From assembly GCF_002900095.1 (NCBI RefSeq), contig NZ_LLKN01000002.1, forward strand, positions 496,001-560,000: a stretch of 64,000 nt of DNA, written 5' to 3'. This document shows, one piece after another, positions 43,728-64,000 of this stretch. The notes beneath the pieces are model-generated. The model was not told the DNA's origin. It saw only the letters and a program-made list of their open reading frames with translations, and made no database searches. The DNA comes from Salegentibacter mishustinae. Its GTDB lineage: Bacteria > Bacteroidota > Bacteroidia > Flavobacteriales > Flavobacteriaceae. The position numbers and the translations under genes were made by a program. The first letter of the stretch is position 1, and every line of letters starts with the position of its first letter.

Positions 43728-44993
43728 ATGGCTGCTGAAACCGCAACTAATCAGAACAACACCAGTAGATCTATTGTTATTATAGGCGTGTTATTTTTCA
43801 TCTTCGGCTTTGTAACCTGGTTAAATTCTGTACTTATTCCATTCTTAAAAACTGCCAGCCAGTTAAATAACTTTGAATCTTATTTAGTAGCCTTTGCTTC
43901 TTATATTTCATATTTCGTAATGGCTATCCCTTCTGCCTGGGTACTAAAAAGAACCGGTTTTAAAAACGGTATGTCCCTTGGCCTTGTTGTGATGGCAGTT
44001 GGTGCTTTAATTTTTATACCTGCTGCGATGTCCAGAACTTATGCGATGTTCTTATTCGGTTTGTTTGTTCAAGGAACCGGTTTGGCTTTACTACAATCGG
44101 CAGCTAATCCTTATATCACTATTCTAGGACCCATTGAAAGTGCGGCAAAACGAATTAGTATAATGGGTATTTGTAATAAGGTAGCCGGTGCTTTAGCTCC
44201 TATTATTTTTGGTGCCATTTTGCTGAAAAATATGGATGCGATTGAAGCCAGACTGGAAGGCATGGGGGCTGCCGCAAAGGCAGCCGAGTTAGATGAACTT
44301 GCTTCCCTTGTAATTACTCCATACATTATCATGGCTGTTATTTTAGTAGGTCTTTCAGTGCTTATTTATTATTCTGCCTTACCCGAAATTGAAACCGATG
44401 GTGAAAATGAGACACTTGCTGCAGCTAATAAAAGTAAAACCAGCGTACTGCAGTTTCCAAATTTACTGCTGGGAACCCTGGCTATGTTTTTATATGTTGG
44501 AGTAGAGGTAATTGCAGGAGATACAGTAATTAGTTACGCGCGAGACGGGCAGGATATTGCTACAGATGTTGCCAAATATTTTACCACATATACCCTTATT
44601 GCCATGATTGTGGGATATTTAATTGGTACGGTAACTATTCCAAAATATATCAGTCAGCAAAAGGCTTTGCAGATTTCAGGTATTTTAGGAATTATACTGG
44701 GTCTTTGTGCAATTTTTACCGATGGTTATGTTTCAGTACTTTGTATATCGCTCTTAGGTTTAGCAAATGCTTTAGTATTTCCTGCGATTTGGCCTTTAGC
44801 GCTTAATGGCTTGGGTAGATTTACTAAAATAGGTTCGTCATTTTTAATTATGGCACTGGCCGGTGGAGCTATTTTACCACTTATCTACGGATATTTAGCC
44901 GATACTTTCGATCCTCAATCGGCTTACTGGATAGTAATTCCAAGTTATTTGTATATCTGGTTTTTCGCAGCAAAAGGGCACAAGATAAAATAA
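43728..44993 (+). CDS. FucP/NagP-like sugar MFS transporter
   Basis: The protein has 421 residues with 12 predicted membrane helices. The segments VLFFIFGFVTWLNSVLIPFLKTASQLN and GLALLQSAANPYITILGP are typical of the FucP/GluP/NagP sugar:proton symporters. It is followed after 10 bp by a GH20 hexosaminidase and then by murQ, so an amino sugar (GlcNAc or MurNAc) is the likely cargo. The pairing with GH20 is like NagP of chitin users, while murQ points to wall sugars. Substrate assignment is inference. Confidence 0.85.
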   Translation: MAAETATNQNNTSRSIVIIGVLFFIFGFVTWLNSVLIPFLKTASQLNNFESYLVAFASYISYFVMAIPSAWVLKRTGFKNGMSLGLVVMAVGALIFIPAAMSRTYAMFLFGLFVQGTGLALLQSAANPYITILGPIESAAKRISIMGICNKVAGALAPIIFGAILLKNMDAIEARLEGMGAAAKAAELDELASLVITPYIIMAVILVGLSVLIYYSALPEIETDGENETLAAANKSKTSVLQFPNLLLGTLAMFLYVGVEVIAGDTVISYARDGQDIATDVAKYFTTYTLIAMIVGYLIGTVTIPKYISQQKALQISGILGIILGLCAIFTDGYVSVLCISLLGLANALVFPAIWPLALNGLGRFTKIGSSFLIMALAGGAILPLIYGYLADTFDPQSAYWIVIPSYLYIWFFAAKGHKIK

Positions 44994-45003
44994 AGATTTT
45001 AGG

Positions 45004-46575
45004 ATGAGTAGTTTAAGTTTCAAGTTAGGTTTAGTTTTAGTGTTTTTTCAGCTGGGTTTATCCGCACAAGAACCCGAAGTTGAAAAACCGGCAATCATAC
45101 CGCAGCCAGCAGAAATTGAGTGGAAAGACAACTTCTTTACACTACAGGAAAGAACAGTGGTTTGTTTTAGTTCCGGTGCAGGAGCATCGGCTGCCTGGCT
45201 GCAGCGATTGCTGAGTAATACTTATACACAAAGCTATGAGATGCGGGGAGAAAATTGTAACGGTTTTAACCTTAATATTAATCCAGAACTGGAAGAAACT
45301 CTTGGTAAAGAAGGTTACAATTTAGAGATTACTGCCAGTACCGTCAGTTTAGAAGCAGCAACAGAAGCCGGATTGTTTTATGCTATCCAAACCTTGCGAC
45401 AAATGTTTCCAGCGGAAATAGAAAATGAAAAAATTTCGGAAGAAATAAAACTTCCCCAGGTGTCTATAACCGATACTCCAAGATTTGAATGGCGTGGGTC
45501 CATGCTTGATATTGCCCGTAGTTTCTTTGGAACAGATTATATTAAAAAGCATTTAGACCGAATGGCTTTTTACAAATTAAACAGACTTCACTTACACCTA
45601 ACCGATGATCAGGGATGGCGTATAGAAATAAAACAAAAACCTAAATTAACCGAATTAGGAAGTAAAGGTGCTGTTAAAGGCGGTAGATCTGGTTATTTAA
45701 CCCAGGAAGAATATAAAGAAATCCAGGAATATGCAGCGGCGAGAAATATTGTAATTGTTCCTGAAATTGATATGCCGGGACATATCTATTCGGCCTTAAT
45801 GGCTTACCCAGAATTAAATTGTGAGGATTTCAGCAATATAGAACCTAGAATGGCGACTCCACCAGAATTATTCCACGAATACAAAGTAGGATGGAGTAAA
45901 CTATGTCTCGATAAACCTGAAATTTATGATTTCGTGGCCACAGTTTTGGGTGAAATGGCTGAAATTACTACCGGAGATTATTTACACATCGGGGGAGATG
46001 AGATTGAAGATGAACGCTACAAGGAATTTGTGGTGAAAGCAGATTCTATTGTTCAGGGCCTTGGTAAAACAACTGTAGGCTGGGAAGAAGTTACCCAGGC
46101 AGCAGTAGACAGTTCTTTTATTAGTCAGCGTTGGAATGGGAAAACCAAGAGTGTAGTAAAAACGCCCGTAATAGAATCTATTTGTTCTAGTTTTTATTAT
46201 GATCACGCTAACGTGCCGGGACAGGAAATGACTAATAACTGGTGTAAAGAAGATGGAGTTTCTTTAAAGGACGCATACACATTTAAGGTAGAAAATCCGA
46301 ATACAATAGGGGTAGAGGCTCCGGTTTGGACCGAGATGGTACTTTCTAACGAAGCTGCAGACGATAGGTTTTGGCCAAGAACAATTGCCATGGCAGAAGT
46401 TGGATGGACTAAAGAGAAGAAAAAAGATTATAAGAACTTCCTAGAACGCCTGGGAGATCAAGGCTTAAGACTTGATCTTATGGATGTAAATTATTTTAGA
46501 AGCCCAGAAGTAGATTGGAATAGCGACCCTAAAAAAGGGATTTTTTCAGAATTTATGCCTAAATCTAAATTTTAA
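45004..46575 (+). CDS. GH20 beta-N-acetylhexosaminidase
   Basis: The protein has 523 residues with a signal peptide (ending GLSAQ). An N-terminal alpha/beta domain (about 30-150) precedes the catalytic barrel (DTPRFEWRGSMLDIARSFF, HLHLTDDQGWRIEI). The catalytic Asp-Glu pair is D332-E333 in HIGGDE, where the Asp holds the substrate acetamido group and the Glu is the acid. It frees terminal GlcNAc (or GalNAc) outside the cytoplasm. Immediately downstream of the transporter, so release and uptake are coupled. Confidence 0.93.
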   Translation: MSSLSFKLGLVLVFFQLGLSAQEPEVEKPAIIPQPAEIEWKDNFFTLQERTVVCFSSGAGASAAWLQRLLSNTYTQSYEMRGENCNGFNLNINPELEETLGKEGYNLEITASTVSLEAATEAGLFYAIQTLRQMFPAEIENEKISEEIKLPQVSITDTPRFEWRGSMLDIARSFFGTDYIKKHLDRMAFYKLNRLHLHLTDDQGWRIEIKQKPKLTELGSKGAVKGGRSGYLTQEEYKEIQEYAAARNIVIVPEIDMPGHIYSALMAYPELNCEDFSNIEPRMATPPELFHEYKVGWSKLCLDKPEIYDFVATVLGEMAEITTGDYLHIGGDEIEDERYKEFVVKADSIVQGLGKTTVGWEEVTQAAVDSSFISQRWNGKTKSVVKTPVIESICSSFYYDHANVPGQEMTNNWCKEDGVSLKDAYTFKVENPNTIGVEAPVWTEMVLSNEAADDRFWPRTIAMAEVGWTKEKKKDYKNFLERLGDQGLRLDLMDVNYFRSPEVDWNSDPKKGIFSEFMPKSKF

Positions 46576-46607
46576 ATTATTTTAGATATTTTATTTAAAA
46601 CATTTCT

Positions 46608-46627
46608 CCTCGAGTTATAGATCGAGG
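46608..46627 (+). repeat. Short CCTCGA palindrome upstream of murQ
   Basis: CCTCGA (46608-46613) and TCGAGG (46622-46627) with an 8-base loop, 22 bp before the murQ ATG. It may be a far relative of the CTCGATTATCGAG repeats or an operator; evidence is thin. Confidence 0.3.
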
Positions 46628-46649
46628 TATATTATAATTAAACCTAAAA

Positions 46650-47465
46650 ATGGAGAATAATAATCCCGATACCGAAAAAACTTCCAAGTATAACGATTTA
46701 GAGAAAATGAGTACTTCAACTCTACTTCACAATATAAACAAAGAAGATAAAACAGTTCCAGAAAGTGTTGAAAAAGAACTTCCAGCAATTGAAAAATTGG
46801 TGGATGCCATAGTACCTAAAATGGAATCCGGTGGGAGATTATTTTATATTGGAGCTGGAACAAGTGGAAGACTGGGGGTTTTAGATGCTTCTGAGTGTCC
46901 TCCTACTTTTGGGGTATCAGATGAATTAGTTATAGGCTTAATTGCCGGTGGTGATATTGCGTTAAGAAATGCAGTTGAAAATGCCGAAGATGACACCAAC
47001 CAGGCCTGGAAAGATCTTCAAAAATTTCAAGTTTCAGAAAAGGACGTGGTAGTAGGGATTGCTGCATCAGGGACTACTCCATACGTTATTGGCGGAATTA
47101 AAGATGCCAGAGCAAAAGGAATAGTTACCGGTTGCGTAACCTGCAGTTCAGGCAGTCCTTTGGCCGCAGCAAGCGAGTTCCCAATAGAAGTAGTTACCGG
47201 CCCAGAATTTGTAACCGGGAGTACACGAATGAAAGCAGGTACTGCGCAAAAGCTGGTATTGAATATGATCTCAACCAGTGTAATGATAAAACTAGGCAGG
47301 GTAAAAGGCAATAAAATGGTAGATATGCAACTTTCCAATAAAAAATTGGTTGGTCGTGGTACCAGGATGATTATGGAAGAGCTAAATGTAGATGAAGCTG
47401 AAGCCGCACGATTGCTTGAAACATACAAAAGTGTAAGAAATGTACTGGCAAAATATGAAAGTTAA
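46650..47465 (+). CDS. murQ: N-acetylmuramic acid 6-phosphate etherase
   Basis: The protein has 271 residues. The SIS domain carries GAGTSGRLG at 68-76 and DASECPPTFG, with E82 and E113 in the places of the two catalytic acids of E. coli MurQ. TGSTRMKAGTAQK closes the fold. It splits D-lactate from MurNAc-6-phosphate to give GlcNAc-6-phosphate in the cytoplasm. It needs MurNAc delivered as the 6-phosphate, so a kinase must be encoded elsewhere. Third gene of the transporter/GH20 operon. Confidence 0.95.
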   Translation: MENNNPDTEKTSKYNDLEKMSTSTLLHNINKEDKTVPESVEKELPAIEKLVDAIVPKMESGGRLFYIGAGTSGRLGVLDASECPPTFGVSDELVIGLIAGGDIALRNAVENAEDDTNQAWKDLQKFQVSEKDVVVGIAASGTTPYVIGGIKDARAKGIVTGCVTCSSGSPLAAASEFPIEVVTGPEFVTGSTRMKAGTAQKLVLNMISTSVMIKLGRVKGNKMVDMQLSNKKLVGRGTRMIMEELNVDEAEAARLLETYKSVRNVLAKYES

Positions 47466-47542
47466 TATTCTGCCGAATATTGCTTGTAACCTTTCTAAAG
47501 TAGCATTACTTAATTTTTAGTGATTAATTGTTGTAAATAATT

Positions 47543-48298
47543 CTATAATAAGTCCAGGCCTATACTTCTATATTTTTGTAGTTCCGGTGAGTTAGGTTCT
47601 AACTCCGTAATAAGGGTATCTACAGCAATTGTGTCACAAACTTTAAAACGATTATAGGTGTTGAGCTTTTTAGAAATGGTAAGTGAAACCAATTTTTTGG
47701 AAGATTTAACCATGGCTTTCTTCATTTGCGCAACCTCCCAATCTAATTCAGTAACACCTTTTGCAATATCCATATAGCCCGTACCTAAAAAGCAGATATC
47801 GGCCGTGATTTCAGATAAAAGATTAATAGCGCTTCCACCTGCGGCAAGTTGCGATCCTCTTGATAATTTCCCCCCTATAAGATGTACCTCATCATGTTTA
47901 GAAGCGTTGTTTAACAATTCTACAGCCATTGGGAGGCTGGGAGTAAAGAAGGTTAAATTCATTTTTCTGGGAAGTAATTTTGCAAGCTCTAAATTAGTAG
48001 AACCTCCGCTAATTAGCACCACATCGCCATGGTTTATAAGTTCTACTCCTTTTTTTGCAATAATAGATTTGTTTTCATATTCATATACCTCCCGGGTATT
48101 ATCGGAATGAATATTAAATCCATTTGAAACCGCTCCCCCGTGAACTTTTTTAAGGCGTTTTAATTTATCCAATTCCATGAGATCCCTTCGCACAGTATCC
48201 ATAGATACGTTAAGAGTTCGGGTTAAGTCACTTAGTAACACCCTGTTATGTAGATGTACTTCGTCAAGAATAATTTGATGGCGCTCAGTTTTTTTCAT
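47543..48298 (-). CDS. DeoR/GlpR family transcriptional regulator
   Basis: The protein has 251 residues: a winged helix at about 3-58 (RVLLSDLTRTLNVSMDTVRRDLMELDKLKRLKKVHGGAV, the family recognition helix) and a DeoRC sugar-phosphate sensing domain (ISGGSTNLELAKLL, ITADICFLGTGYMD). It sits between the murQ operon and the SusC/SusD operon and is divergent from susC. The natural reading is a repressor of both sides released by a sugar phosphate such as MurNAc-6-P or GlcNAc-6-P; the ligand is inference. Confidence 0.92.
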   Translation of the reverse strand: MKKTERHQIILDEVHLHNRVLLSDLTRTLNVSMDTVRRDLMELDKLKRLKKVHGGAVSNGFNIHSDNTREVYEYENKSIIAKKGVELINHGDVVLISGGSTNLELAKLLPRKMNLTFFTPSLPMAVELLNNASKHDEVHLIGGKLSRGSQLAAGGSAINLLSEITADICFLGTGYMDIAKGVTELDWEVAQMKKAMVKSSKKLVSLTISKKLNTYNRFKVCDTIAVDTLITELEPNSPELQKYRSIGLDLL

Positions 48299-48342
48299 AT
48301 TAAATTTTTGGAACTGGTTTTTGGGTTAAAGACAGTATATAA

Positions 48343-48350
48343 CAAAATTA
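48343..48350 (-). promoter_or_regulatory. -7 element of the DeoR-type gene
   Basis: CAAAATTA on the plus strand, TAATTTTG on the minus strand, 45 bp before the ATG. Confidence 0.4.
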
Positions 48351-48440
48351 ACTCGAATCAAATTAATATGTTAAAATTTTTGAATTGTGATTTTTAAAGT
48401 AAGGCTACTGTTTTTTTATTAAAATTCGATATATGCAATT

Positions 48441-48507
48441 AAAAATAGCAAAAAATAGGTTAGTAGCGCAAAAAAACCGCAAAAAAGGTAAATTATTGCA
48501 ATTTTTT
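48441..48507. promoter_or_regulatory. Phased A-tracts upstream of the susC promoter
   Basis: A-tracts at 48441-48445, 48450-48455, 48470-48476 and 48481-48486 and a T-tract at 48502-48507 have centres about 9.5, 20.5, 10.5 and 21 bp apart, near whole helical turns, so the DNA should be curved. Three tracts are preceded by GC, giving a repeated GCAAAAAA that could also be the DeoR-type operator. Confidence 0.5.
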
Positions 48508-48508
48508 A

Positions 48509-48539
48509 TTGCTATTAATTAATTTATATGATATGTTTG
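48509..48539 (+). promoter_or_regulatory. susC promoter (TTG-N20-TATGTTTG)
   Basis: TTG at 48509-48511 and TATGTTTG at 48532-48539, 28 bp before the ATG at 48568. It lies directly downstream of the phased A-tracts. Confidence 0.6.
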
Positions 48540-48567
48540 TTTCATAATCAATTGTTAATGTATTATT

Positions 48568-51500
48568 ATGGGAAAACGTTTTCGTAAGTCTATTTTAGTG
48601 TTGCTCTGCCTATTTTCAATTCAGGTGTGGGCACAGGAGAGAGAAGTTTCGGGAGAAATCTTTGATACGGATGGAATGCCACTACCAGGGGTGAACGTAT
48701 TTATAGAGAATACATCCAAAGGAACTGTAAGTAATTTTGATGGGGAATTTTCTCTAAGTATTCCAGATGAAAACAGTACAGTGCTGGTTTTTTCATCTTT
48801 AGGATTCCAGGAACAGAAGATTACTGTTGGGAATCGAAACAATTTCACTATTACTATGCAAACCGATACTGAAGGTTTGGACGAAGTAGTGGTAGTTGGG
48901 TATGGTAGTCAAAAACGGAGTAATGTAACCAGTTCAATCTCTACGATAGATACAGAAGTTTTGGATTCAAGACCAATTACCGATGTTGCACGTGGTTTGC
49001 AAGGTGCAAGTCCCGGGATAACGATTACAACTCCTACCGGGCAGATTGGTCAGGACCCAACTATAAGACTGCGTGGTAATATAGGAACTTTAAGCCCTGG
49101 AGGCGGCGGTGCTCAACCCTTAATTTTGGTCGACAACGTTGAGGTTTCCAGCCTGCAATCTATAAACCCACAGGATATTGAAGATATTTCAGTATTAAAA
49201 GATGCAGCATCTACTTCTATTTATGGAGCCAGAGCTGCCTGGGGTGTGATTTTGGTGACTACTAAAAATGGTAGACGAAGCCAGGCACCAACCGTTAACT
49301 ACTCGAATAACATTTCATGGTCTACTCCAACTAATACTCCTACAGTGGCACCTGCGGCAGATGGAGCCGAGATGGCTTTTGCGGCTGTGAGAAGAAGAAT
49401 TCCTTCTTTAGATGCATTTGGATTGGTGAATATGTATTTAGATGATACCGCGATTGAAAGAATGCGAGAGTGGGAAGAACTATATGGAGACCAGAATTTA
49501 AGTGATGAAATGGTTCTTGGCCGTGATTTTGAAATAAGAGATGGAAGATTGTTTTTCTATCGTCCGTGGAATCCCGAAGATAAGTTCGTTAAAGAATGGG
49601 CGCCACAGCAAAAACACGATCTTTCTGTTTCAGGAGGAAGTGAAAAAACCAACTACTATGTTGGTCTTGGTTACCTGGAACAAGGTGGAGTTTATAAAGC
49701 AAACCCAGATGAATTTGAAAGATATAACCTTAACTTAAGTGTTAATACTTCTATTACAGACTGGATGGATGTTAGAGCCAAAGTATTATATACCAATACA
49801 AAAACAACAGAACCTTTTGCTTTTGGATCTGCTACCTATGATGCCTGGTATTATACCACCAGATGGCCGGCATATTATCCTTACGGAACTTATGAAGGAA
49901 ATCCTTTTAGAAGTCACGTAAACGAAGTAGCACAGGCAAAGATGAACCAAAATGATAGGGCTCTAACCAGAATTAATTTAGGTACCACTATCAATCCTAT
50001 TGAAAATCTAGATATTAATTTTGATTATACTTTTGATGGTGTAGATAGACACGAACACCAGGTTGGTGGATCGGTTTCGGCTTACAATTTCTGGGCTACC
50101 GGGCCAGATCTAGTTTACGAGCCATATACCAGTCCAGCGTATGACAGGGTTGTTTACAATTCTTCCTGGAGTAGAAGAAACACGGCAAAAGCTTTTGCTA
50201 CTTACGATCTTAATATAGCTGATGATCATCAATTTGAAGTTACTGTTGGTGGTGATGCCGAAGAGTTTGAATTATGGGCACAATCTTCTCAAAGAAGAGA
50301 TTTATTAAATCCAGATCAGGGAGAGTTAGACCTGGCTACAGGAGATCAGTTCGTTGGAGGTGATAGAGAAAATTGGACCACTTTAGGTGCTTTTGCTCGA
50401 ATTAACTATTCATATAAAGAAAAGTATCTACTTAACGTAAATGGTAGATATGATGGTTCTTCCAGACTTTCAGCAGATGAGAAGTGGGCATTTTTCCCAT
50501 CTATGTCGGCTGGTTGGATAGTTACCAAAGAAGATTTTATGGATGCTGTAAAACCAACTTTGTCTTTCCTAAAGTTAAGAGGTTCTTATGGATCTGTAGG
50601 AAATCAAAATGCGCTAATCTCAAACATTTATAGAACAATGTCGTCTTACAATACCGGATGGTTAATAGACGGCGAAAACCAGTTAACTACAGGAACTCCT
50701 GGTGCTTTACCGGCAGATCTTACCTGGGAAACTGTAACTACTTTAGATTTAGGTTTCGATGCTCGTTTCTTTAAGGATAAATTAGGAGCTAGTTTTAGCT
50801 GGTACGAGAGAACAATTAGCGATATGCATAGTGCGGGGGTAACTTTGCCTAATTCTTTTGGTACTTCAGCTCCAATTAGAAATTTTGGTGAGATTCAAAC
50901 CAAAGGTTGGGAGCTTGAACTTGATTTTAGCCATACTTTTGATAACGGACTTAGCATAAATACTAAAGGTAACTTAAGTGACTTTAAAGAGAGAGTAACG
51001 AAATTTGCAAATACTACCGAGGGAATAAATTCCTATTATGAAGGGAAACAATTGGGAGAAATTTGGGGATATGAAACAGATAGATTTTTTACTGAAGCAG
51101 ATTTTGATTCCGACGGTAACTTAGTAGAAGGCATTCCTTCTCAGGAAATCTTCGAAACCAATGGTTGGTTCCAGTACGGTCCCGGAGATATAAAATACAA
51201 AGATTTAAATGGTGATGGTGTTGTAGATTTTGGATCTAGAACAGTAGGTGATTCTGGAGATATGAAAAGAATTGGTAACTCCACACCTCGTTATCAATAT
51301 GGATTGCAAATAGGAGCAAACTGGAAAGGTTTTGATTTTAATATGTTTATGCAGGGTGTTGGAAAACGTGATTTCTGGGCAAACGGGCCGGTATTTATTC
51401 CTGGGTATCGTTATGGAGAAGCCTGGTATGAGCACCAGTTAGACTACTGGACACCAGAAAATCCAAATGCATATTATCCAAGACCTAACGACCAGCAACA

Positions 51501-51798
51501 ATCTAATAATGCGATGAACTTTTTACCGCAGTCAAAATATTTATTAGATATGTCTTATTTGAGAATGAAGAACATCACCTTAGGATATACTATTCCAACT
51601 TCTCTAACAGAAAAATTTCAGGTAGAAAGGTTTAGAATTTATGCCAGTGGTGAGAACCTTTTCGAATTCACAGGTGCACAGGTTCCTGTAGATCCTGAAG
51701 TAGACTATACCTCAGCTGGTCTAAATGACACCTCAACCTTTGGACGTGTTTACCCATTTAGAAGATCATTTTCTCTAGGAGTTCAGGTAACACTATAA
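48568..51798 (+). CDS. SusC/RagA family TonB-dependent outer-membrane transporter
   Basis: The protein has 1076 residues: signal peptide (ending VWAQ), a carboxypeptidase-like regulatory domain (about 25-105, VSGEIFDTDGMPLPGVNVFIENTSKGTVSNFDG), TonB box region DEVVVVGYGSQKRSNVTSS, plug with ISVLKDAASTSIYGARAAWGVILVTTKNG, and a 22-strand barrel ending FSLGVQVTL. With the SusD lipoprotein it forms a lidded importer for oligomers. Context makes muropeptides or another amino-sugar glycan the likely cargo. Only 20 bp separate it from susD. Confidence 0.96.
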   Translation: MGKRFRKSILVLLCLFSIQVWAQEREVSGEIFDTDGMPLPGVNVFIENTSKGTVSNFDGEFSLSIPDENSTVLVFSSLGFQEQKITVGNRNNFTITMQTDTEGLDEVVVVGYGSQKRSNVTSSISTIDTEVLDSRPITDVARGLQGASPGITITTPTGQIGQDPTIRLRGNIGTLSPGGGGAQPLILVDNVEVSSLQSINPQDIEDISVLKDAASTSIYGARAAWGVILVTTKNGRRSQAPTVNYSNNISWSTPTNTPTVAPAADGAEMAFAAVRRRIPSLDAFGLVNMYLDDTAIERMREWEELYGDQNLSDEMVLGRDFEIRDGRLFFYRPWNPEDKFVKEWAPQQKHDLSVSGGSEKTNYYVGLGYLEQGGVYKANPDEFERYNLNLSVNTSITDWMDVRAKVLYTNTKTTEPFAFGSATYDAWYYTTRWPAYYPYGTYEGNPFRSHVNEVAQAKMNQNDRALTRINLGTTINPIENLDINFDYTFDGVDRHEHQVGGSVSAYNFWATGPDLVYEPYTSPAYDRVVYNSSWSRRNTAKAFATYDLNIADDHQFEVTVGGDAEEFELWAQSSQRRDLLNPDQGELDLATGDQFVGGDRENWTTLGAFARINYSYKEKYLLNVNGRYDGSSRLSADEKWAFFPSMSAGWIVTKEDFMDAVKPTLSFLKLRGSYGSVGNQNALISNIYRTMSSYNTGWLIDGENQLTTGTPGALPADLTWETVTTLDLGFDARFFKDKLGASFSWYERTISDMHSAGVTLPNSFGTSAPIRNFGEIQTKGWELELDFSHTFDNGLSINTKGNLSDFKERVTKFANTTEGINSYYEGKQLGEIWGYETDRFFTEADFDSDGNLVEGIPSQEIFETNGWFQYGPGDIKYKDLNGDGVVDFGSRTVGDSGDMKRIGNSTPRYQYGLQIGANWKGFDFNMFMQGVGKRDFWANGPVFIPGYRYGEAWYEHQLDYWTPENPNAYYPRPNDQQQSNNAMNFLPQSKYLLDMSYLRMKNITLGYTIPTSLTEKFQVERFRIYASGENLFEFTGAQVPVDPEVDYTSAGLNDTSTFGRVYPFRRSFSLGVQVTL

Positions 51799-51818
51799 TT
51801 TTAAAAAACTTAGTTATT

Positions 51819-53534: not shown

Positions 53535-53563
53535 TTATATTTATATTTACAGGTGAGTTAGCT

Positions 53564-53596: not shown

Positions 53597-53625
53597 CTTT
53601 AATTTACTCCTAAAATCTTCAAACT

Positions 53626-55227: not shown

Positions 55228-55267
55228 TTCGGGGCGAGCCCACGATGTAAAAAATGAAAAGTATTTT

Positions 55268-55315: not shown

Positions 55316-55325
55316 TTAATTATAT

Positions 55326-56783
55326 ATGAGCCCTATTCTCGTTTTTGGCGTAATAGCCGGTTATTTTCTTTTATTACTGGCTATTAGTCATTTTACTTCC
55401 AAGCAAGCCGATAACAATACCTTTTTTACCGCAAACAGGCAATCGCCCTGGTTTCTGGTAGCTTATGGGATGGTTGGCGCAACCCTATCTGGTGTTACAT
55501 TTATTTCGGTTCCCGGAGAAGTTGGTAACTCCAACTGGACCTATTTGCAATTTGTGATGGGGAATATGGTGGGATACGCGGTAATTGCGCTTGTTTTAAT
55601 TCCGTTGTTCTATAAATTGAAATTAATTTCTATTTATGAGTATTTAAAAGATCGCTTCGGGCAAAATTCTTATTATGCAGGCGCATCTTTTTTCCTTATT
55701 TCCCAAACAGTAGGTGCTTCTTTTCGATTATTTTTAGCGGCTTTAGTCTTGCAAATCGCCTTTTTTGATGCTTTTGGAATTCCGTTTTGGGTTACGGTAA
55801 TGATCACCATTGCTCTAATATGGTTATATACATTCCGCGGAGGAATTAAAACCATTGTTTGGACAGATACGCTGCAAACAAGCTTTTTACTACTGGCGGT
55901 AGTAATAAGTATTTGGATGATCACAGATCATATGGAGCTTAGTATGGCCGATGTTTTTGCAACAATTGGTAAAAGTGAAAAGTCTACAATTTTTGATTGG
56001 GACTGGCGCTCTAATAATGCATTTTACAAGAGTTTTCTGGCGGGAATTTTTATTACTATCGCCATGAACGGGCTTGACCAAAACGTAATGCAGAAAAATC
56101 TAACTTGTAAAAGTAAAGGTGAAGCACAAAAGAATATTTTTTGGTTTTCTATCGTGTTTTTCTTCTCAACGGTGTTGTTTTTAGCTTTGGGAGTTTTACT
56201 TTACAAATATGCGATGGACCAGGGAATTGCGATTCCTGAAAGAACAGACGATCTTTATCCATTGCTCGCATTAAACCACTTTGGAATTCTTGCCGGTGTT
56301 GTTTTTTTATTAGGAATTACCGCCGCCGCATTTTCCAGTGCAGATTCAGCATTAACTGCGCTCACTACTTCTTTTTGCGTAGATATTTTAGATATTCAGA
56401 AAAAAGAAAAAAATCAAAAAAAGACCAGGTTATTGGTTCATATTGGCTTTACCATTTTAATGTTTCTGGTAATTATAGTCTTTAATTCGCTAAACGATAG
56501 CAGCGTGGTAAGCGCTGTATTTAAAGTAGCCGGATTTACCTATGGCCCGCTTTTAGGCTTATTTGCTTATGGTTTATTGTGTAAAAATCCGGTTAGAGAT
56601 AAATGGGTACCCGTGGTATGTATTTTATCACCGGTAATTTCAGTAATTTTAGATTTCAATTCTGAAGCCTGGTTAAACGGTTATCAGTTTGGTTTCGAAA
56701 TTTTGTTGGTTAATGCCGCAATAACCATGTTAGGCCTTTTCGCCCTTTATAGACCTAAGACCGATGAGGTTTCTATTGACTAA
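55326..56783 (+). CDS. Sodium:solute symporter (SSS family)
   Basis: The protein has 485 residues with about 13 membrane helices. SSS features are GMVGATLSGVTFISVPGEVG near the sodium site and LLGITAAAFSSADSALTALTTSFCVD. It resembles the symporters placed in Bacteroidota loci for sialic acid, MurNAc or muropeptides. It precedes the dipeptide epimerase by 12 bp, so a wall sugar or small murein peptide is the probable cargo; this is inference from context. Confidence 0.9.
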   Translation: MSPILVFGVIAGYFLLLLAISHFTSKQADNNTFFTANRQSPWFLVAYGMVGATLSGVTFISVPGEVGNSNWTYLQFVMGNMVGYAVIALVLIPLFYKLKLISIYEYLKDRFGQNSYYAGASFFLISQTVGASFRLFLAALVLQIAFFDAFGIPFWVTVMITIALIWLYTFRGGIKTIVWTDTLQTSFLLLAVVISIWMITDHMELSMADVFATIGKSEKSTIFDWDWRSNNAFYKSFLAGIFITIAMNGLDQNVMQKNLTCKSKGEAQKNIFWFSIVFFFSTVLFLALGVLLYKYAMDQGIAIPERTDDLYPLLALNHFGILAGVVFLLGITAAAFSSADSALTALTTSFCVDILDIQKKEKNQKKTRLLVHIGFTILMFLVIIVFNSLNDSSVVSAVFKVAGFTYGPLLGLFAYGLLCKNPVRDKWVPVVCILSPVISVILDFNSEAWLNGYQFGFEILLVNAAITMLGLFALYRPKTDEVSID

Positions 56784-56795: not shown

Positions 56796-57812
56796 ATGGA
56801 ACTAAAATTTCATCCATACAACCTGGAATTAAAAAACACCTTTACCATAAGTCACGGTTCCCGGGATGTTCAGCCAACTTTAATCGTTTCCTTAAGCGAC
56901 CGCGGATTTACCGGTTATGGAGAAGCTACGGCAACTTCTTATTACGGAGTTACGATTGAAAAAATGCAGGCCGATATTCTTAATATTGAAGACTTAATTG
57001 CTGAAAATATTCTCCTGGAACCTGAGGAACTATGGGAGTTAACTTATCCGCATTTAAAAGAAAATCCATTTGCGCTATGTGCATTGGATATGGCCATGCA
57101 TGACCTCCACGGAAAAAGAAATCGCCAACCGCTTTATCAATTATGGGGGCTGGATTTAGAAAATATTCCGCTTACCAATTATACTATCGGGATAGATTCC
57201 GTAGAAAAGATGGTTCAGAAAATTAAAGAATTTCCCTGGCCGCTTTATAAAATCAAACTCGGAACCGAAGATGATGTGGCTATTGTTAGTGAACTGCGAA
57301 AACATACAAATTCTGTATTTCGGGTAGATGCCAACGCCACCTGGACGGTAGATCAGGCTATAGAGAATGCTAAAGCTCTAAAAGAATTAAATGTTGAATT
57401 TTTAGAGCAGCCTTTAAAAGCCAACGATTGGGAAGGAATGGAAAAACTTTATAAAGAATCGGTTTTGCCACTTATTGCCGATGAAAGTTGTATTGAAGAA
57501 AGCGATGTTGAAAAATGTGCCGGTTATTTCCACGGAATAAACATTAAACTCACAAAATGCGGAGGATTAACCCCAGGGAAACGAATGATTTTAAAAGGAA
57601 GATCTCTCGGTCTAAAAGTAATGGTGGGTTGTATGACCGAATCTACTGTGGGGATTTCAGCCATTGCACAATTATTGCCGCTCCTGGATTATGTAGATAT
57701 GGACGGTGGACTTTTAATTAAAAATGATATCGCTGATGGTGTAAAAGTCTATGACGAAAAAGTACATTTCCCAGAAAGAAACGGCACTGGGGTTGAATTA
57801 TATGAGAAATAG
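56796..57812 (+). CDS. L-Ala-D/L-Glu (dipeptide) epimerase
   Basis: The protein has 338 residues of the enolase superfamily. The catalytic lysine of the first motif is in LYKIKLG near 150, the magnesium ligands are D in FRVDANATW, E in LEQPL and D in ADESC, the second lysine is in NIKLTKCGG, and GCMTESTVG is the specificity loop of dipeptide epimerases. It converts L-Ala-D-Glu from murein peptides to L-Ala-L-Glu for use as food. Its neighbours (symporter and NlpC/P60) mirror the Bacillus ykfA-D set. Confidence 0.92.
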   Translation: MELKFHPYNLELKNTFTISHGSRDVQPTLIVSLSDRGFTGYGEATATSYYGVTIEKMQADILNIEDLIAENILLEPEELWELTYPHLKENPFALCALDMAMHDLHGKRNRQPLYQLWGLDLENIPLTNYTIGIDSVEKMVQKIKEFPWPLYKIKLGTEDDVAIVSELRKHTNSVFRVDANATWTVDQAIENAKALKELNVEFLEQPLKANDWEGMEKLYKESVLPLIADESCIEESDVEKCAGYFHGINIKLTKCGGLTPGKRMILKGRSLGLKVMVGCMTESTVGISAIAQLLPLLDYVDMDGGLLIKNDIADGVKVYDEKVHFPERNGTGVELYEK

Positions 57813-57855: not shown

Positions 57856-57923
57856 CTAAGCTTTTAAAAAAATAAAAATCATTCGTGAATTTGTGGCGAA
57901 AACAACAAACTAAAACTGGAATA

Positions 57924-59150
57924 ATGAATTTAATAAAACCTTATTTAACCTTTTTACTAACGCTTTTCTTATTTGCCTCCTGCGAGGAGAAAGAAGAAAA
58001 AAAAGAGGAGAATCCGCTTCAAACCCAAATAGCAGCAGTAGAAAAAACCTACGCGCCAGATGGCCGGGTAGCCCTTTTTGAAGTTACAGCTGTAAAAAAC
58101 GGAGAAACTTATATTCTTAAAGGAGAATCTAATGATCCTGAAGCCGTAGATTCATTAAAAGAAAAGCTGAAATCAGAAAATATCAAGTTTACCGATAGTA
58201 TTCAGGTACTTCCAGATACTGAAGCTTTGGAAGATAAAATTCGTGGTGTCGTAAAAATTTCAGTGGCAAATTTAAGGGATGAGCCAAAACATTCGGCGCA
58301 ATTGGTTACTCAGGCAACCCTGGGAATGCCGCTTAAAGTTTATAAAAAAGAAGGAAGTTGGTATTATGTTCAAACGCCGGAGGGTTATTTAGCCTGGGTA
58401 GATTACGGTGGAATAGAAAATATGACGGAAGAAGAATTTTCTGCCTGGAAATCTCAGGATAAATTAATTTTTACCGAGCCAACGGGTAATTCTTATACCG
58501 AAGCCAATTCAGATTCTCAGACAGTTTCAGATCTGGTGGCGGGGAATATTTTAGAGCTTCTAAGCGAGGAAAATAACTTTTATAAGGTAGAATATCCAAA
58601 TGGTAAAAAAGCTTTTGTAGAGAAAGCCTATACGCAGCCATATAAAGAATGGGTTTCTTCGCTGGAACAAAACAAAGAAGACCTGGTAGCCACGGCGCAT
58701 AGATTGATGGGATTACCTTATTTATGGGGTGGTACTTCTCCTAAAGGAGTAGATTGCAGCGGTTACACCAAAACCGTTTACTTTTTAAACGGAATGGTAA
58801 TTCCGCGGGATGCTTCCCAGCAAATTCATACCGGGGATGTGGTTGATACCGATAAGAACTTTGAAAATCTTGAAAAAGGCGACCTGCTTTTCTTCGGAAA
58901 ACCGGCAACCGATTCTACTTCAGAGCGCGTAATTCACGTAGGAATGTGGATTGGTGATAACAAGTTTATTCATTCTATGGGCGAGGTACATATTAGTAAT
59001 TTTGATACCGAAGCCGAAGATTTTGATGAATATAATTACAATCGCTACTTACGAACCAAGCGAATTTTAAACAAAGAAGATAAAGGCTTAATTTACCTAA
59101 AAAACACCGATCTTTTTACTACTTCAGAAACTGAAGAAGTAAAGATGTAA
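57924..59150 (+). CDS. SH3-NlpC/P60 endopeptidase (YkfC-like), lipoprotein
   Basis: I start at ATG 57924 (MNLIKPYLTFLLTLFLFASC), giving 408 residues with lipid Cys at 20; the earlier TTG start breaks the signal. Two bacterial SH3 domains (about 110-165 and 185-240) precede the NlpC/P60 domain, with catalytic C278 in GVDCSGYT, H338 in VIHVGMW and H350 in FIHSMG. YkfC-type enzymes cut D-Glu from meso-DAP in murein peptides, giving L-Ala-D-Glu, the substrate of the epimerase just upstream. Strong terminator follows. Confidence 0.92.
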   Translation: MNLIKPYLTFLLTLFLFASCEEKEEKKEENPLQTQIAAVEKTYAPDGRVALFEVTAVKNGETYILKGESNDPEAVDSLKEKLKSENIKFTDSIQVLPDTEALEDKIRGVVKISVANLRDEPKHSAQLVTQATLGMPLKVYKKEGSWYYVQTPEGYLAWVDYGGIENMTEEEFSAWKSQDKLIFTEPTGNSYTEANSDSQTVSDLVAGNILELLSEENNFYKVEYPNGKKAFVEKAYTQPYKEWVSSLEQNKEDLVATAHRLMGLPYLWGGTSPKGVDCSGYTKTVYFLNGMVIPRDASQQIHTGDVVDTDKNFENLEKGDLLFFGKPATDSTSERVIHVGMWIGDNKFIHSMGEVHISNFDTEAEDFDEYNYNRYLRTKRILNKEDKGLIYLKNTDLFTTSETEEVKM

Positions 59151-59207: not shown

Positions 59208-62200
59208 CTATTCTTCAAGCTTTTCGAATAAGTAATAACCGCCACCTTTATCCCAGCTGCAGAAAATTATAGTATTCTCATTTTTTGAAACTCCTATGCC
59301 ACGAGGTTCGGCACCATTAACTTCAGGTATTTCTAAAGTCCACATTTGCTGTTTTTCTTCATTTCTGTAATGAATACTCGAAGGCGAAATTCCGCTGGAA
59401 CGTACAGCGGCATAAATGGCATTATCTATAACTTGTATCGCACTAGAACCGGCAGAAATGCTGGTAATATCCTTTTGCCTGGTATAATCTCTGCCATTTT
59501 CACTGCTATAAATCTGGATCTTTGGGCTACCAGGATCGGGGAAAAGAAGTGTTTTTCCATCCTGAGTCATATCGAAAGTTCGCGCTAGATTTCTATCTTT
59601 TAGCTTAAGAGTTCTTAGCAGTTTAAAAGTTTCTCCCTGCTGTTTTAATACGTAGTTAGGGTCTTCCCCAAACAGTGACATCGCATATATTTCTCCGTTT
59701 TTAGCTGCGCGCGGTGCAGTAATTGCTCTTGCGCCTTTAGGTGCTTCCCAAACAGCAAGTCCTTTCCCGGTTTGGGCATCAATTTTAATCAATCTGCGAT
59801 TAATTCCCGCTAGAATATTTCCGTCTACATCTACTCCAATGCCGTTTACAGGATTTAAATTATAGACCTCGCCGTTTATTTCTACTGAAGTTAGAGGCGA
59901 AAAATCTATTTCTTTATTGCTAGAATCTTTAATTATTAATCCATTATTATAATCGGCGAGCCATAATTTCCCTTCGTTATCCCATTCGGCGCCATAGCCA
60001 GCACCAGATGCAGCTAATTTTCCTTTAAAGGTATATTTTGGAGCTGGAACTTGTGCAAGATCGTCCAGGGCTTCATCTGTTTTCATCAAATTTAAAGCGG
60101 TTGGAGCAGCGTAGGAAAAATTGCTGCCATCTGTTGCCAGGATTCTATGGTAAAAGCTTTTCGGTTCACCAATTTCAGAATTTCCAAGAAGATCAAACCA
60201 TTGTTTTTCTGTCATTTTTAAGCTTGTTTCTCTACCGGTTTTTTTCTGAAGAATTATTTCTGAAAAATCCTTTTTAGGTGAAAGTTGATAGATATAACTT
60301 ACAAAATCGCCGTCTTTATCTATCGCCTGACTCCATTTTATTTCGTAGAGTGCCTCAATATCGCGTACTGCATAAGTGTTCTTCGGGTAATGAGAAGTGA
60401 TTTTAGCAGGTTCTGGTGCTTTATTTTGAGTTGGTAATAATTGAGCTCTTAAATTTCCTTTTTTGGTATTTATTTGAATATAGATACCACCAAAATTAAG
60501 ATAGCTCTTAATTTCTTTAGTAAGTTCTAGTTGAGAAGAAAAGGTACCACTTCCTGGCGAAGATGCTTTGAATTTCACTTCTTTCAGCAATTCGCCTTCT
60601 TCGGTATGTCTTTCCTTATAGATACCTATAGGGTTTTTATCAGAAAAATTTGAAGTTATATTGAAATAGCTTCCTGAAAGTTTAAGCTTATCTTCTTCAA
60701 TTTTAGCCTCAACCTGGGCGATGCCGGCAATATCTTGTTCTTTAGTGTTTAAGGAAGAAAGGAATGCTTTAAATTTTTGACTTTCGGGGATATCCCTGCG
60801 CAACATATAACCGTTTACTCCTATCATTGCAGATGGTAAAGTCTTTTCTTCAAATAAACTCATTTCTGCGGCTTTGTCTTTCTTTATATCATAAGTACTA
60901 TAAACAATAGAATCTTTTGAATTAAAAATATCCATAATCGTTATAGTATTTACAGGCTTTTGGCTTTGTGTTAACCACGAACGAGGTCCGGAACCTGCAG
61001 CACCCGTATTTAGGAATTCCAGTTTTCCCCTTTTCCCAGGGTAATAGGCGTGCTGGTGCCCGCTTATATAGGTCTTTACCTTATATTTTTCAAGAAGATG
61101 CTGGAGTTCTTTAGCATTTTCCAGTACATTACCTTTTGAATCTCTCTCCTGGGCTACGCTATAAAGTGGCATATGGCCAATAACAAATCTATGGGTAGCT
61201 TTTTTAGCTTCTGGAGTTTGAAATTGTTTCTCCAGCCATTCCAGGTTTTCTTCGGTGATCTTGGAAGAAGAAGCCTCCCAGGAAACAAAAAAGTTATTTT
61301 TCGCTATAAACGAATAGTAGTTCGGGAAATTAGTATAGTCTATAAAATGCAGGCCTGTTTTGTTAATATTTTCTTTCCAGAAGTTTTTAGCAAATTTATG
61401 TTCTACGGGGTAGCTTCTTGGGCCATCGTGATTGCCCAGGGTAAAAGCAAAGGGAATTTTTTCTTTATGAAGGGGTTCTATAATATGTTTTTTAAAGCCA
61501 TTCCACATTTTTTGTAGTTGGGCTGTTTCAGAAACTCCCATTCCTGCTACCATATCGCCACCACAAATCACTAAATCTGGTTGCCAAATCTTCGGAATTC
61601 TATTTATTATGCTATCTACCTGCCATTCGTAATTAGCAGCACCCAATCCAGAATTTAAGTCTGAAATTACAGCGATACGTAAATCTCCGCGTTTGGGTAG
61701 TACTGGAGAGCCTTTTTTAGCGACTAATCTTATAGCATCTGCAATAAATTTTCCTTTAGTAGCTCCAATAATCTCCAGGGTATCTCTGGGGCCAATTTCA
61801 AAATTGCCCAATACATTCCATTTTCCTAAATTATCGAGAGATTTTTGATTTATGAAAAGGGTATCACTTTTGCCTTCGCTATGTAGAATGTAATTTACAC
61901 GTTCAGAATTATTTTGAGTGTTTACGGTGAACCAGGAGGCTAGTTGGTAATTATTTCGCTCAATACCTTCAAAAGTATAAAATGCCTTATTTATTTTGTT
62001 TGAAGTGGCTACCCGGGAGGCGCTCTCGCCATAATAATTAACCTGGTTCGAGCTGTTCCAAATTCCTGTTTCAGAATAATTCCTGTCTTCGGTATCAAAG
62101 ATGATTGGTTTTGGACGTTGCGGTACCTGGGTTTCAGCGATTACTAAAGCTCCCGCATTCTTCCTTAAACTATTCCGATTTCCGCCGGTGATATCTGCAG

Positions 62201-63002
62201 GAATATTTACCACCTCGTTGGCAGCAACCATAGCCGAAGATCCGCCACCATCTAGATTTACTGCATTTTTAGCACCAACATCTAACATTAATTGTGCTAA
62301 TTCGCCTAAACTTACTCCCGCACTGGCTTCCTGCCGCCCATCTACCACCATCATAATTAGGGTATTTTTGTCTTTGTAACCAATAGCACTTCGCGGATGG
62401 CGGGCTAAATGACTTCCCTTAAACCCTTCTTCTTTATCAGTTAAATTTATTTTTCCGTTTTTTAGTAAAATCGGTCCGCCACCAACTGCCTGGTTTACAT
62501 CCCAATTTTCTGAAGCTGAATGAATATCTGGTGAGGCCAATTTCTTTGGAATATCATTTTCCCTGGAATTCACCCAGGCGATTTCCGGCACTCCGTTTTT
62601 CATTCCAAATGCACCCCTGGAAATTTCATTGCTGGGTCCCGGAGCAATAACCTCTCCGTCCTGGATAATAGCGCTTACCGAAGAGTTTGAAGCAAAATAT
62701 CCGCCGTTTATAGCCAAAATCCCATTTCCTCTGTTATAAGTTTCTTTAGTAGTTTCCCTAATGGTATTACTGCCAATAGAACGTAATTTTAGATTTTCGT
62801 CACTTAAGTCTATGAGAGCATACATTGCTCTTACGGGCTTATTATCTGGTAAAGTTCCATAAGCGTTATAAATCTTTATGGATGCCGGTAGATTAATGTT
62901 TAGATCTTTTCTTGGCTGCCAGTTAAGGTTTATTTCCTGGGCTTGCAGGGGTAAGAAAAGTAAAAGACCTAAAATGCTAATGATTAATTTAGGTGCTTTC
63001 AT
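59208..63002 (-). CDS. Phosphodiester glycosidase - metallophosphoesterase fusion with CHRD and propeller-like domains
   Basis: The protein has 1264 residues and a signal peptide (ending LQAQ). In order: a NAGPA/DUF2233 phosphodiester glycosidase (about 55-290; AINGGYFASNSS, MMVVDGRQEASAGVSLGELA, NLDGGGSSAMV); a golvesin/xanthan-lyase-type beta domain (about 300-430); a metallophosphoesterase (about 437-690; AVISDLNSG, CGGDMVAG, GNHDG, GHMPLY, GHQHAYYPG); a CHRD-like domain (about 760-860); a fibronectin-like part; and a propeller-like end (about 1000-1264). NAGPA domains split sugar-1-phosphodiesters, so teichoic-acid-like or glycan phosphodiesters are possible targets. Outer domains are less sure. 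Confidence 0.8.
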   Translation of the reverse strand: MKAPKLIISILGLLLFLPLQAQEINLNWQPRKDLNINLPASIKIYNAYGTLPDNKPVRAMYALIDLSDENLKLRSIGSNTIRETTKETYNRGNGILAINGGYFASNSSVSAIIQDGEVIAPGPSNEISRGAFGMKNGVPEIAWVNSRENDIPKKLASPDIHSASENWDVNQAVGGGPILLKNGKINLTDKEEGFKGSHLARHPRSAIGYKDKNTLIMMVVDGRQEASAGVSLGELAQLMLDVGAKNAVNLDGGGSSAMVAANEVVNIPADITGGNRNSLRKNAGALVIAETQVPQRPKPIIFDTEDRNYSETGIWNSSNQVNYYGESASRVATSNKINKAFYTFEGIERNNYQLASWFTVNTQNNSERVNYILHSEGKSDTLFINQKSLDNLGKWNVLGNFEIGPRDTLEIIGATKGKFIADAIRLVAKKGSPVLPKRGDLRIAVISDLNSGLGAANYEWQVDSIINRIPKIWQPDLVICGGDMVAGMGVSETAQLQKMWNGFKKHIIEPLHKEKIPFAFTLGNHDGPRSYPVEHKFAKNFWKENINKTGLHFIDYTNFPNYYSFIAKNNFFVSWEASSSKITEENLEWLEKQFQTPEAKKATHRFVIGHMPLYSVAQERDSKGNVLENAKELQHLLEKYKVKTYISGHQHAYYPGKRGKLEFLNTGAAGSGPRSWLTQSQKPVNTITIMDIFNSKDSIVYSTYDIKKDKAAEMSLFEEKTLPSAMIGVNGYMLRRDIPESQKFKAFLSSLNTKEQDIAGIAQVEAKIEEDKLKLSGSYFNITSNFSDKNPIGIYKERHTEEGELLKEVKFKASSPGSGTFSSQLELTKEIKSYLNFGGIYIQINTKKGNLRAQLLPTQNKAPEPAKITSHYPKNTYAVRDIEALYEIKWSQAIDKDGDFVSYIYQLSPKKDFSEIILQKKTGRETSLKMTEKQWFDLLGNSEIGEPKSFYHRILATDGSNFSYAAPTALNLMKTDEALDDLAQVPAPKYTFKGKLAASGAGYGAEWDNEGKLWLADYNNGLIIKDSSNKEIDFSPLTSVEINGEVYNLNPVNGIGVDVDGNILAGINRRLIKIDAQTGKGLAVWEAPKGARAITAPRAAKNGEIYAMSLFGEDPNYVLKQQGETFKLLRTLKLKDRNLARTFDMTQDGKTLLFPDPGSPKIQIYSSENGRDYTRQKDITSISAGSSAIQVIDNAIYAAVRSSGISPSSIHYRNEEKQQMWTLEIPEVNGAEPRGIGVSKNENTIIFCSWDKGGGYYLFEKLEE

Positions 63003-63021
63003 AACAATAAAATTTAGGAGG

Positions 63022-63608
63022 TTATCTTAATTGAGGTAATTTTTGATATAGGTTGCTACCGGGACAACTGGTATCGGCCTGGTCTCTATGGCCGCTAATT
63101 GTGTTACGGGAAATACGGTACTCACCGGAAATATAAGAGATAAGTTCTTTTAACTTTCCCATTGTTGAGGTAATACTTTTTCCTTATTAAAATCCCCTTC
63201 TACTACAATTAGTACATGGCCGTCAAGGTTGTAATTAGTATTAGAATCGCCCTGGAATTTTATCTCCCTTCCTTCAGCAATTTCACCATTGGTTGCAATA
63301 TAAAAATGATAAGGAACATCTGCCCAGGCTTTTTTTATGCTACCATCGGCCATTGGGGAATCTTTAAGGGAGAAATTTTGCAATGCCTGCAGTTTCTTTT
63401 CTATAGAAAGTTCCGGTTTTTGAGGCATCCCTGTATGGTGAATGGTAATAAATTTCGGTTTATGCACTTTCATTTCCATGATCGGTTCTTGGGCATTCCA
63501 GTCTTCTCTTTGAACAATAGCTAATTCATTTTTAGAATTTTGCTGAGCAAAAAGTGAAATACTACTAAAAAACAACACCAGCAAACTAAACTTACCTATA
63601 TGACTCAT
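63022..63608 (-). pseudogene. N-acetylmuramoyl-L-alanine amidase (Amidase_2), frameshifted
   Basis: The first frame (63150-63608) encodes a signal peptide (SISLFAQ), VQREDWNAQEP, the zinc His pair region FITIHHTGMP, and VPYHFYIATNGEIAEGREIKFQGDSN, then stops after QQWES. The next frame (to 63022) supplies the missing end: KLKELISYISGEYR, then SGHRDQADTSCPGSNLY with the third zinc ligand H and the C. Adding one A in the run GGGAAAG (63158-63170 region) would rejoin them. So this is a recent one-base deletion, or a sequencing error. Intact, the enzyme would cut stem peptides from MurNAc. Confidence 0.8.
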
Positions 63609-63654
63609 AAGATTGCCTTATTTATTTTAAATCGTTTTTTCTGAAAAAAGATGC

Positions 63655-64000
63655 TTACAAATACTTCTTATGTAGCTGGTAAAGCACTTTTAGATCGTGT
63701 ATACCGAAAGGCTTGTCTAAATCTTCCTGGATAAAATGAAGTTTAAATGCGCTTTTAGCTGCCTCTAAATCTGAAGTATCAAATCCTATAATTTTAAGGG
63801 CATTTTCAACATTAAAATCTGCCGGAATTACTTCAGGGAAAACCAATTTATCTATAAATGGAATTCTGGTATTAAGTGGGCTGTTGAGGTGAATCGCTAA
63901 AGGATTAGGTTTAAAAAATTCGGCTTCCAGTTTTAAATTTTCTACTTCAGCTTCGTCATACCATAGCCCAAAACCTTCTTCGGCCAATCGTTTCCAGGGG
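63655..64000 (-). CDS. Hypothetical protein, C-terminal 114 residues
   Basis: The frame is open to the right edge (PWKRLAEEGFGLWYDEAEVENLKL onward) so the N-terminus lies outside. It ends FGIHDLKVLYQLHKKYL. I do not recognise the family. It is upstream of, and in line with, the amidase and glycosidase genes (46 bp spacing), so it is probably the first or second gene of that wall-degrading operon. Confidence 0.6.
   Translation of the reverse strand, partial: PWKRLAEEGFGLWYDEAEVENLKLEAEFFKPNPLAIHLNSPLNTRIPFIDKLVFPEVIPADFNVENALKIIGFDTSDLEAAKSAFKLHFIQEDLDKPFGIHDLKVLYQLHKKYL

Follow-up and report, generated by a model that had tools for sequence, protein, structure and literature searches.

To our knowledge, little is understood of how Gram-negative bacteria move sizeable pieces of peptidoglycan across their outer membrane, and a locus of Salegentibacter mishustinae centred on the outer-membrane importer SusC and its binding lid SusD (SusCD) raises the question of whether such pieces could be its cargo. 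The locus lies in a 64,000-nucleotide stretch (the window; positions 496001-560000 of contig NZ_LLKN01000002.1, here C2) of a 3.82-Mb genome. Its genes run in the order NagP-type porter of the major facilitator superfamily (MFS), GH20 and murQ on the forward strand, deoR on the reverse strand, susC, susD, GHL10, sodium:solute symporter (SSS), epimerase and NlpC/P60 on the forward strand, and finally an NAGPA fusion and amidases on the reverse strand. Every gene listed in the initial annotation was recovered in its place by open reading frame (ORF) and family match. Gene content, family assignments and recurrent linkage, as read from sequence, suggest that this is very probably a peptidoglycan-foraging utilisation locus with a glycan arm and a peptide arm.

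The linkage carries most of this argument. We took 127 pattern matches to the window SusD and fetched 49 loci, which, having been reached through SusD, were not selected for murein genes. Seven markers (MurQ, NamZ, two amidase types, dipeptidyl-peptidase VI (DPP6), the epimerase and GHL10) were searched for within about 10 kb, using models that were derived from clusters among these same SusD-relative loci and then applied in the same way to controls. Close and far relatives were divided at a gap between 53% and 46% SusD identity, some loci not reaching full length (e.g. L011, L013, L023, L027 and L030). Among close relatives (at least 53% identity), 29 of 38 carried at least one marker and 23 of 38 at least two, compared with no marker in any of 29 control SusD loci. 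GHL10 was found in 27 of the 38, MurQ in 18 and NamZ in 9, and GH20, which was not a marker, also in 9. Of the 59 surveyed family genomes with MurQ, 58 have a single copy, yet in those 18 loci it stands with this SusD. Since 21.7 kb amounts to about 0.6% of such a genome, random placement would predict well under one MurQ where 18 were seen.

The controls comprised 9 loci from the same genome, being the non-window SusD sites listed out of 13 in the genome, and 20 high-scoring matches from eight other genomes, hand-picked from the top of the list with matches near contig starts and three others omitted (two of them on contigs already used); some were mutually orthologous and five were cut by contig ends. 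Marker counts were 0/9 and 0/20, respectively, and non-marker models gave low GH3/NagZ scores in two own-genome loci (92 and 115, vs at least 380 elsewhere), GH20 in two others and a NagP-type porter in one. The Fisher test gave p = 2.5e-11, a value that is not a true probability because the loci are not independent (several come from congeners, and L066 is probably L016). Five further loci drawn from genome surveys all had at least one marker and two of the five had two, one of those two probably being L016 again. The search of relatives that the initial annotation had proposed as a check thus found the linkage to recur, with two or more markers in Flavobacteriaceae, Cyclobacteriaceae, Hymenobacteraceae and Sphingobacteriaceae and in differing gene orders. 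In Salegentibacter, Christiangramia and Salinimicrobium, nagP-GH20-murQ lies upstream; Arenibacter, Sinomicrobium pectinilyticum and Cellulophaga have a divergent murQ-deoR; Echinicola has murQ-GHL10 upstream on the opposite strand; and in Pontibacter and Arcticibacter murQ lies downstream, accompanied by SSS if the contig extends far enough. At this locus in Christiangramia echinicola (L008), an amidase is fused to NamZ.

Comparison with other loci suggests that the importer itself is exchangeable. A congener carries at the same lepA site a locus (L084:6957-20000) that parallels window positions 43728-56783, with NagP 92%, GH20 73%, MurQ 83%, GHL10 77% and SSS 85% identical to the window proteins; its SusC is merely 25% identical to the window SusC and its SusD has no significant similarity, so that an unrelated SusC/SusD pair, together with a DUF4397 protein, sits inside the same cassette in what is an apparent importer swap. 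Three more loci (L075, L081 and L106) have a SusD of another family (SusD-like_2, by a Pfam test of L075) together with SSS, MurQ, NagZ and NamZ, and L075 also has NagB/PIG-L. In another genus, NagP-MurQ-GHL10-epimerase-DPP6-NagZ follows lepA with no SusCD within the 20 kb (L141). Within the genus, the window SusD type occurs in 3/9 genomes and the L084 type in 1/9. Salegentibacter salarius, with a SusD 98% identical to that of the window, and S. agarivorans both have the locus (L006, L007). Collectively, these comparisons look like a peptidoglycan catabolic block fitted with differing SusCD importers, the SusCD pair being an exchangeable foraging add-on and not a housekeeping component.

Closer inspection of the individual genes is consistent with a glycan arm. 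As expected of a polysaccharide-utilisation locus (PUL), susC (48568-51798, +; TIGR04056, 858.4 bits) and susD (51819-53534, +; Pfam SusD_RagB) are adjacent, and the AlphaFold model of the SusD lipoprotein has a SusD fold (mean pLDDT 84.2). They are linked to glycan enzymes (GH20, GHL10, NagZ), inner-membrane porters (MFS, SSS) and regulators (DeoR, ROK). The MFS amino-sugar porter of NagP/GluP type (43728-44993, +) matches Pfam MFS_1 and scores 295.7 bits with the NCBIfam gluP model (cut-off 202.6) and 403.9 bits with NagP, under the cut-off of 625. The GH20 beta-hexosaminidase (45004-46575, +; Pfam Glyco_hydro_20, 4.5e-77) has an N-terminus that by eye resembles a signal peptide. MurQ, the N-acetylmuramic acid (MurNAc)-6-phosphate etherase (46650-47465, +; TIGR00274, 319.8 bits, cut-off 302), is present as a single copy in the genome, and the DeoR-family regulator (47543-48298, -; Pfam DeoRC and HTH_DeoR) is divergent from susC. 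Downstream of susD lies the GHL10 lipoprotein (53626-55227, +; Pfam GHL10, 2.1e-61), a predicted cutter of peptidoglycan glycan strands whose sole PDB sequence match is Cwp19 (2.5e-71). Escherichia coli DigH presumably carries a GHL10 domain as well. Cwp19, which shares its Pfam domain with the lipoprotein of this locus, is a peptidoglycan lytic transglycosylase (PMC6016235), and DigH degrades peptide-free peptidoglycan strands (PMC12288456, the text of which does not use the name GHL10); those enzymes serve autolysis or daughter-cell separation, whereas here the lipoprotein stands in a SusCD locus.

A peptide arm is suggested by the genes that follow the SSS symporter (55326-56783, +; Pfam SSF), a candidate MurNAc importer scoring 152.4 bits with TIGR00813, under that model's cut-off of 184 though over Pfam's. 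The NlpC/P60 and SH3 lipoprotein (57885-59150, +) aligns to dipeptidyl-peptidase VI (PDB 3pvq, 8.5e-86) over residues 117-396, the catalytic Cys region included, and by this match it is a predicted gamma-D-Glu endopeptidase of dipeptidyl-peptidase VI type. The dipeptide-epimerase-like enzyme (56796-57812, +) is likely of the L-Ala-D/L-Glu type, its closest PDB entries being 3iji, 3ijl and 3ijq (1e-61). The best of these, 3iji, is titled muconate cycloisomerase and is what we take to be a dipeptide epimerase; next come entries that bear the title dipeptide epimerase or L-Ala-D/L-Glu epimerase. These strong matches to dipeptidyl-peptidase VI (3pvq, 3npf) and dipeptide epimerases (3iji, 3jva, 1jpd) are here linked to SusCD and MurQ. 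The nearest solved structures and the marker counts together support the suggestion of the initial annotation that the locus is of murein type and handles both glycan and peptide.

On the reverse strand, a long protein (59208-63002) joins an NAGPA phosphodiester glycosidase, a golvesin domain and a metallophosphoesterase by Pfam and PDB matches, with a C-terminal half devoid of Pfam matches; the PDB matches of its NAGPA part are to structures of NAGPA and to 3ohg, a bacterial DUF2233 structure. The amidase that had been counted as part of the run is indeed present (63150-63608, -; Pfam Amidase_2, 28.1 bits, cut-off 26) but is interrupted: its ORF ends early, and the same protein in L006, L007 and L067 extends to a conserved end, so the gene is either broken here (a pseudogene) or affected by a sequence error. 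A second, intact Amidase_2 lipoprotein follows (63655-64593, -; L057:1655-2593; Pfam Amidase_2, 2.5e-31 on the whole protein), of which the C-terminal part, 63655-64000, falls in the window. The 20-kb run that had been described is therefore real but incomplete, since the locus continues for about 10.7 kb past the window edge, to about 74708 on the window scale. Family matches in this extension identify a NagB/PIG-L fusion (64596-66518, -; L057:2596-4518), a ROK protein that also carries a winged helix (66547-67833, -), an HGSNAT-domain protein (68050-69207, +) that we take to be NagX-like, a NagZ-type GH3 protein that includes a beta-lactamase domain (69224-72172, +; L057:7224-10172) and a TonB-linked outer-membrane protein (72303-74708, +). 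Because no protein of the genome exceeds the TIGR00221 cut-off for NagA, the deacetylase (PIG-L) half of the fusion may supply the NagA step, making the fusion a possible one-protein deacetylase-deaminase in place of NagA plus NagB.

From these families we infer activities, locations, step order, regulation and the SusCD substrate, as well as the sense in which the locus would be "dedicated" to murein and "feed on" it, the terms of the initial annotation. SusCD at the outer membrane would capture soluble fragments of peptidoglycan shed by other cells or left by dead ones and import them with energy from TonB. Two amidases, one of them broken here, would strip the stem peptides, and the GHL10 lipoprotein would cut the bared glycan strands, from which NagZ, GH20 and a NamZ encoded elsewhere may free N-acetylglucosamine (GlcNAc) and MurNAc. 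MurNAc and GlcNAc would enter the cytoplasm through the SSS symporter and the MFS porter. There a kinase encoded elsewhere would make MurNAc-6-phosphate and MurQ would convert this to GlcNAc-6-phosphate, after which the two halves of the fusion, PIG-L and NagB, could complete the route to fructose-6-phosphate. The freed peptides would be trimmed to L-Ala-D-Glu by the dipeptidyl-peptidase-VI-type enzyme and rendered digestible by the epimerase, with the DeoR and ROK regulators presumably sensing amino-sugar phosphates.

The substrate names given here to the epimerase, the MFS porter and the symporter are family-level predictions. For the symporter, MurNAc is the likeliest cargo: SSS homologues directly adjoin murQ in six loci (L075, L077, L106, L137, L032 and L035), and the window protein is 51-54% identical to the four of these that were compared, vs 48% to a homologue without murQ (L054). 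Because the window gene adjoins the peptide genes, a peptide porter stands as a possible alternative. The excerpts describing MurT of Tannerella forsythia place that porter in the sodium symporter superfamily in the introduction and among the major facilitators in the discussion (PMC5790795).

Several observations weigh against peptidoglycan foraging. Among far SusD relatives (at most 46% identity), one marker was found in 3/11 loci and two in 0/11, and 9 of the 38 close relatives lacked every marker (three from Algoriphagus, two from Siphonobacter and four from Chitinophaga), although L023 among these is cut by a contig end and the Algoriphagus loci carry a BadF-type kinase. One genome (G030) has the SusD orthologue and MurQ on separate contigs. 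A metallophosphoesterase-propeller protein (15/38) and GH9-type proteins (12/38) are recurrent partners that the model leaves unexplained, and the MFS porter and GH20 would equally suit chitin oligosaccharides. The epimerase, NagP and SSS score below all specific NCBIfam cut-offs, the epimerase reaching 218.9 with its best model, DgcA (cut-off 400), and 139.6 with the L-Ala-D/L-Glu epimerase model (cut-off 343), and Foldseek with the SusD model returned ordinary SusD matches devoid of a ligand hint. The locus itself lacks NamZ and a MurNAc kinase: the genome's single NamZ is at C2:2527k, and its sole BadF-type kinase match, at C2:1941k, is under the Pfam cut-off and lies beside genes recognisable by eye as gap and pfk. 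Of the NamZ-NagZ pair for exo-hydrolysis, the locus thus supplies NagZ, through the GH3 and beta-lactamase protein past the window edge, and of a murTKQ-type operon it supplies the MurQ etherase. Finally, MurQ is core in the family, being present in 59/60 family genomes, and MurQ inside a SusCD locus is the exception. Among 59 non-window MurQ loci, many of them cut by contig ends, a SusC match was found in 5, and at least one of NagZ, NamZ, GHL10, DPP6 and the epimerase in 13, including 4 of the 5 with SusC. MurQ co-occurrence on its own was accordingly rejected as proof of a peptidoglycan substrate, since the gene is near-universal in the family and mostly stands away from SusCD.

Could the locus instead be devoted to chitin, with SusCD importing chito-oligosaccharides, GH20 and NagZ freeing GlcNAc, the MFS porter importing it and NagB/PIG-L catabolising it, the murein genes being neighbours for the amino-sugar end of metabolism? 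The MFS porter, GH20, NagZ, the NagX-like protein, ROK and NagB/PIG-L are all usable for GlcNAc, but the locus has no GH18, the single one in the genome being about 1.35 Mb away, and no use on chitin is known for the amidases, the dipeptidyl-peptidase-VI-type enzyme, the epimerase or MurQ. Relatives moreover add NamZ, once fused to an amidase, and GH20 is rarer among them than GHL10 or MurQ. We consider a chitin locus unlikely. We consider it very unlikely that the murein genes serve recycling of the cell's own wall while SusCD serves an unrelated glycan and merely shares the site. Such recycling genes would exist anyway, given the near-universal MurQ and the presence of AnmK in this genome, and the SusCD-free block of L141 and the marker-free close relatives are compatible with it. 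However, across four families and under several gene orders it is the same SusCD orthologue that accompanies peptidoglycan genes, and equivalent loci contain two further types of SusD. The patchy presence of the SusD also fits foraging over housekeeping: it occurs in three genomes of the genus, and SusD relatives were found in the same 60 family genomes in 8/60 at E <= 1e-30 and in 2/60 at E <= 1e-150, and in 5/395 class genomes at the latter threshold, the own genome included in both of these last counts.

A further proposal is a special case of peptidoglycan foraging and compatible with it, namely that the locus consumes Gram-positive walls. In such walls teichoic acid is attached to MurNAc by way of a GlcNAc-1-phosphate linkage. 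In this scenario the NAGPA-phosphoesterase protein would cleave that anchor of wall teichoic acid (GlcNAc-1-phosphate-6-MurNAc), or remove another phosphodiester-linked polymer, and so clear the glycan for the amidase and GHL10, while the exchangeable SusCD would import the resulting peptidoglycan fragments. NAGPA enzymes are described as releasing phosphodiester-linked sugars (PMC12419801, citing Das 2013), and a preprint (PMC11188070) predicts a surface component, for instance (lipo)teichoic acid, to be the target of ShfP-like calcineurin-type phosphoesterases, a group with relatives that bear PQQ propellers or NAGPA. NAGPA was present in 5/38 close relatives, and the more frequent metallophosphoesterase-propeller protein holds in Christiangramia the position that the NAGPA fusion has in Salegentibacter, but the similarity between the two is weak (24% over 215 residues). 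The teichoic acid substrate is putative, and the fusion could instead have phospholipid, DNA or a different phosphodiester glycan as its substrate, or serve to provide phosphate; we regard a Gram-positive specialisation as doubtful.

Other features recur at or near these loci. The metallophosphoesterase with a PQQ-type propeller stands beside this SusCD at L008:17211-19127 and in 15 other loci among L006-L054. GH9-type proteins recur in L019, L021, L022, L025, L026, L028, L031, L033, L037, L038, L040, L043 and L050; at L106:4125-6638 one protein combines GH9 with a polysaccharide deacetylase domain (Pfam, run on L106 alone), and L059 has a distant GH9 by blastp (26%). A creatininase-family protein lies between the MFS porter and GH20 at L008:3416-4177, and likewise in L009, L010, L025 and L028. 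Within the window, a hairpin between susD and the GHL10 gene (53564-53596, +; 15-pair stem with a T-rich tail) is the longest of 20 terminator-like sites, which are not in excess over shuffled sequence (17.3, standard deviation 5.0), and it is possibly a mid-operon attenuator that would lower expression of the downstream genes. A promoter scan returned fewer sites than shuffles (43 vs 54.5), and inverted repeats in four intergenic regions, considered as regulator operators, were AT-rich and unconvincing.

The initial annotation knew of no well-described SusCD locus of this composition, which the literature corrects. In excerpts of PMC10199937, a Urechidicola symbiont of Idas mussels carries a PUL of about 27 kb, most of it assigned to murein metabolism, that shares with the present locus SusCD, deoR, a sodium co-transporter (nis), murQ, nagB, an L-Ala-D/L-Glu epimerase, an amidase (ampD) and a GH3. 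It differs in having two susCD pairs, AmpG, dacA, nhaC, GH18, GH171 and a GH10 that is possibly GHL10; the likeness is one of gene content, function being predicted there too. Among macroalgal Bacteroidota, 69 PULs with peptidoglycan as predicted substrate are given in passages of PMC10233909, a likeness of predicted class; the terms GH171, GH73, GH23, murein and muramidase are absent from its main text. The published Urechidicola locus and the 69 PULs mean that the kind was already known as a prediction. The murTKQ operon of T. forsythia shares MurQ and a symporter with our locus but includes its kinase, for which the candidate here lies elsewhere, and the passages concerned treat AmpG and MurT in the inner membrane (PMC5790795). 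Excerpts of PMC6987092 and PMC10877868 treat peptidoglycan genes and describe no such SusCD locus, the words Sus, SusC and TonB do not occur in PMC11382707, and no experimental test of a peptidoglycan SusCD was found in a literature search that for most papers did not extend to the full text. What the present analysis adds is a controlled test of linkage, the exchange of SusCD pairs and the whole length of the locus, which is a well-supported further member of this predicted kind.

Peptidoglycan foraging, as we read the locus, predicts an SSS-type MurNAc porter and a one-protein stand-in for NagA plus NagB. Repeated linkage ties SusCD to a near-complete murein catabolic set and thereby provides named candidate genes for outer-membrane import of peptidoglycan, in a marine genus with cultured strains. 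If this is true, the bacterial cell wall would be a dedicated food of some marine Bacteroidota.

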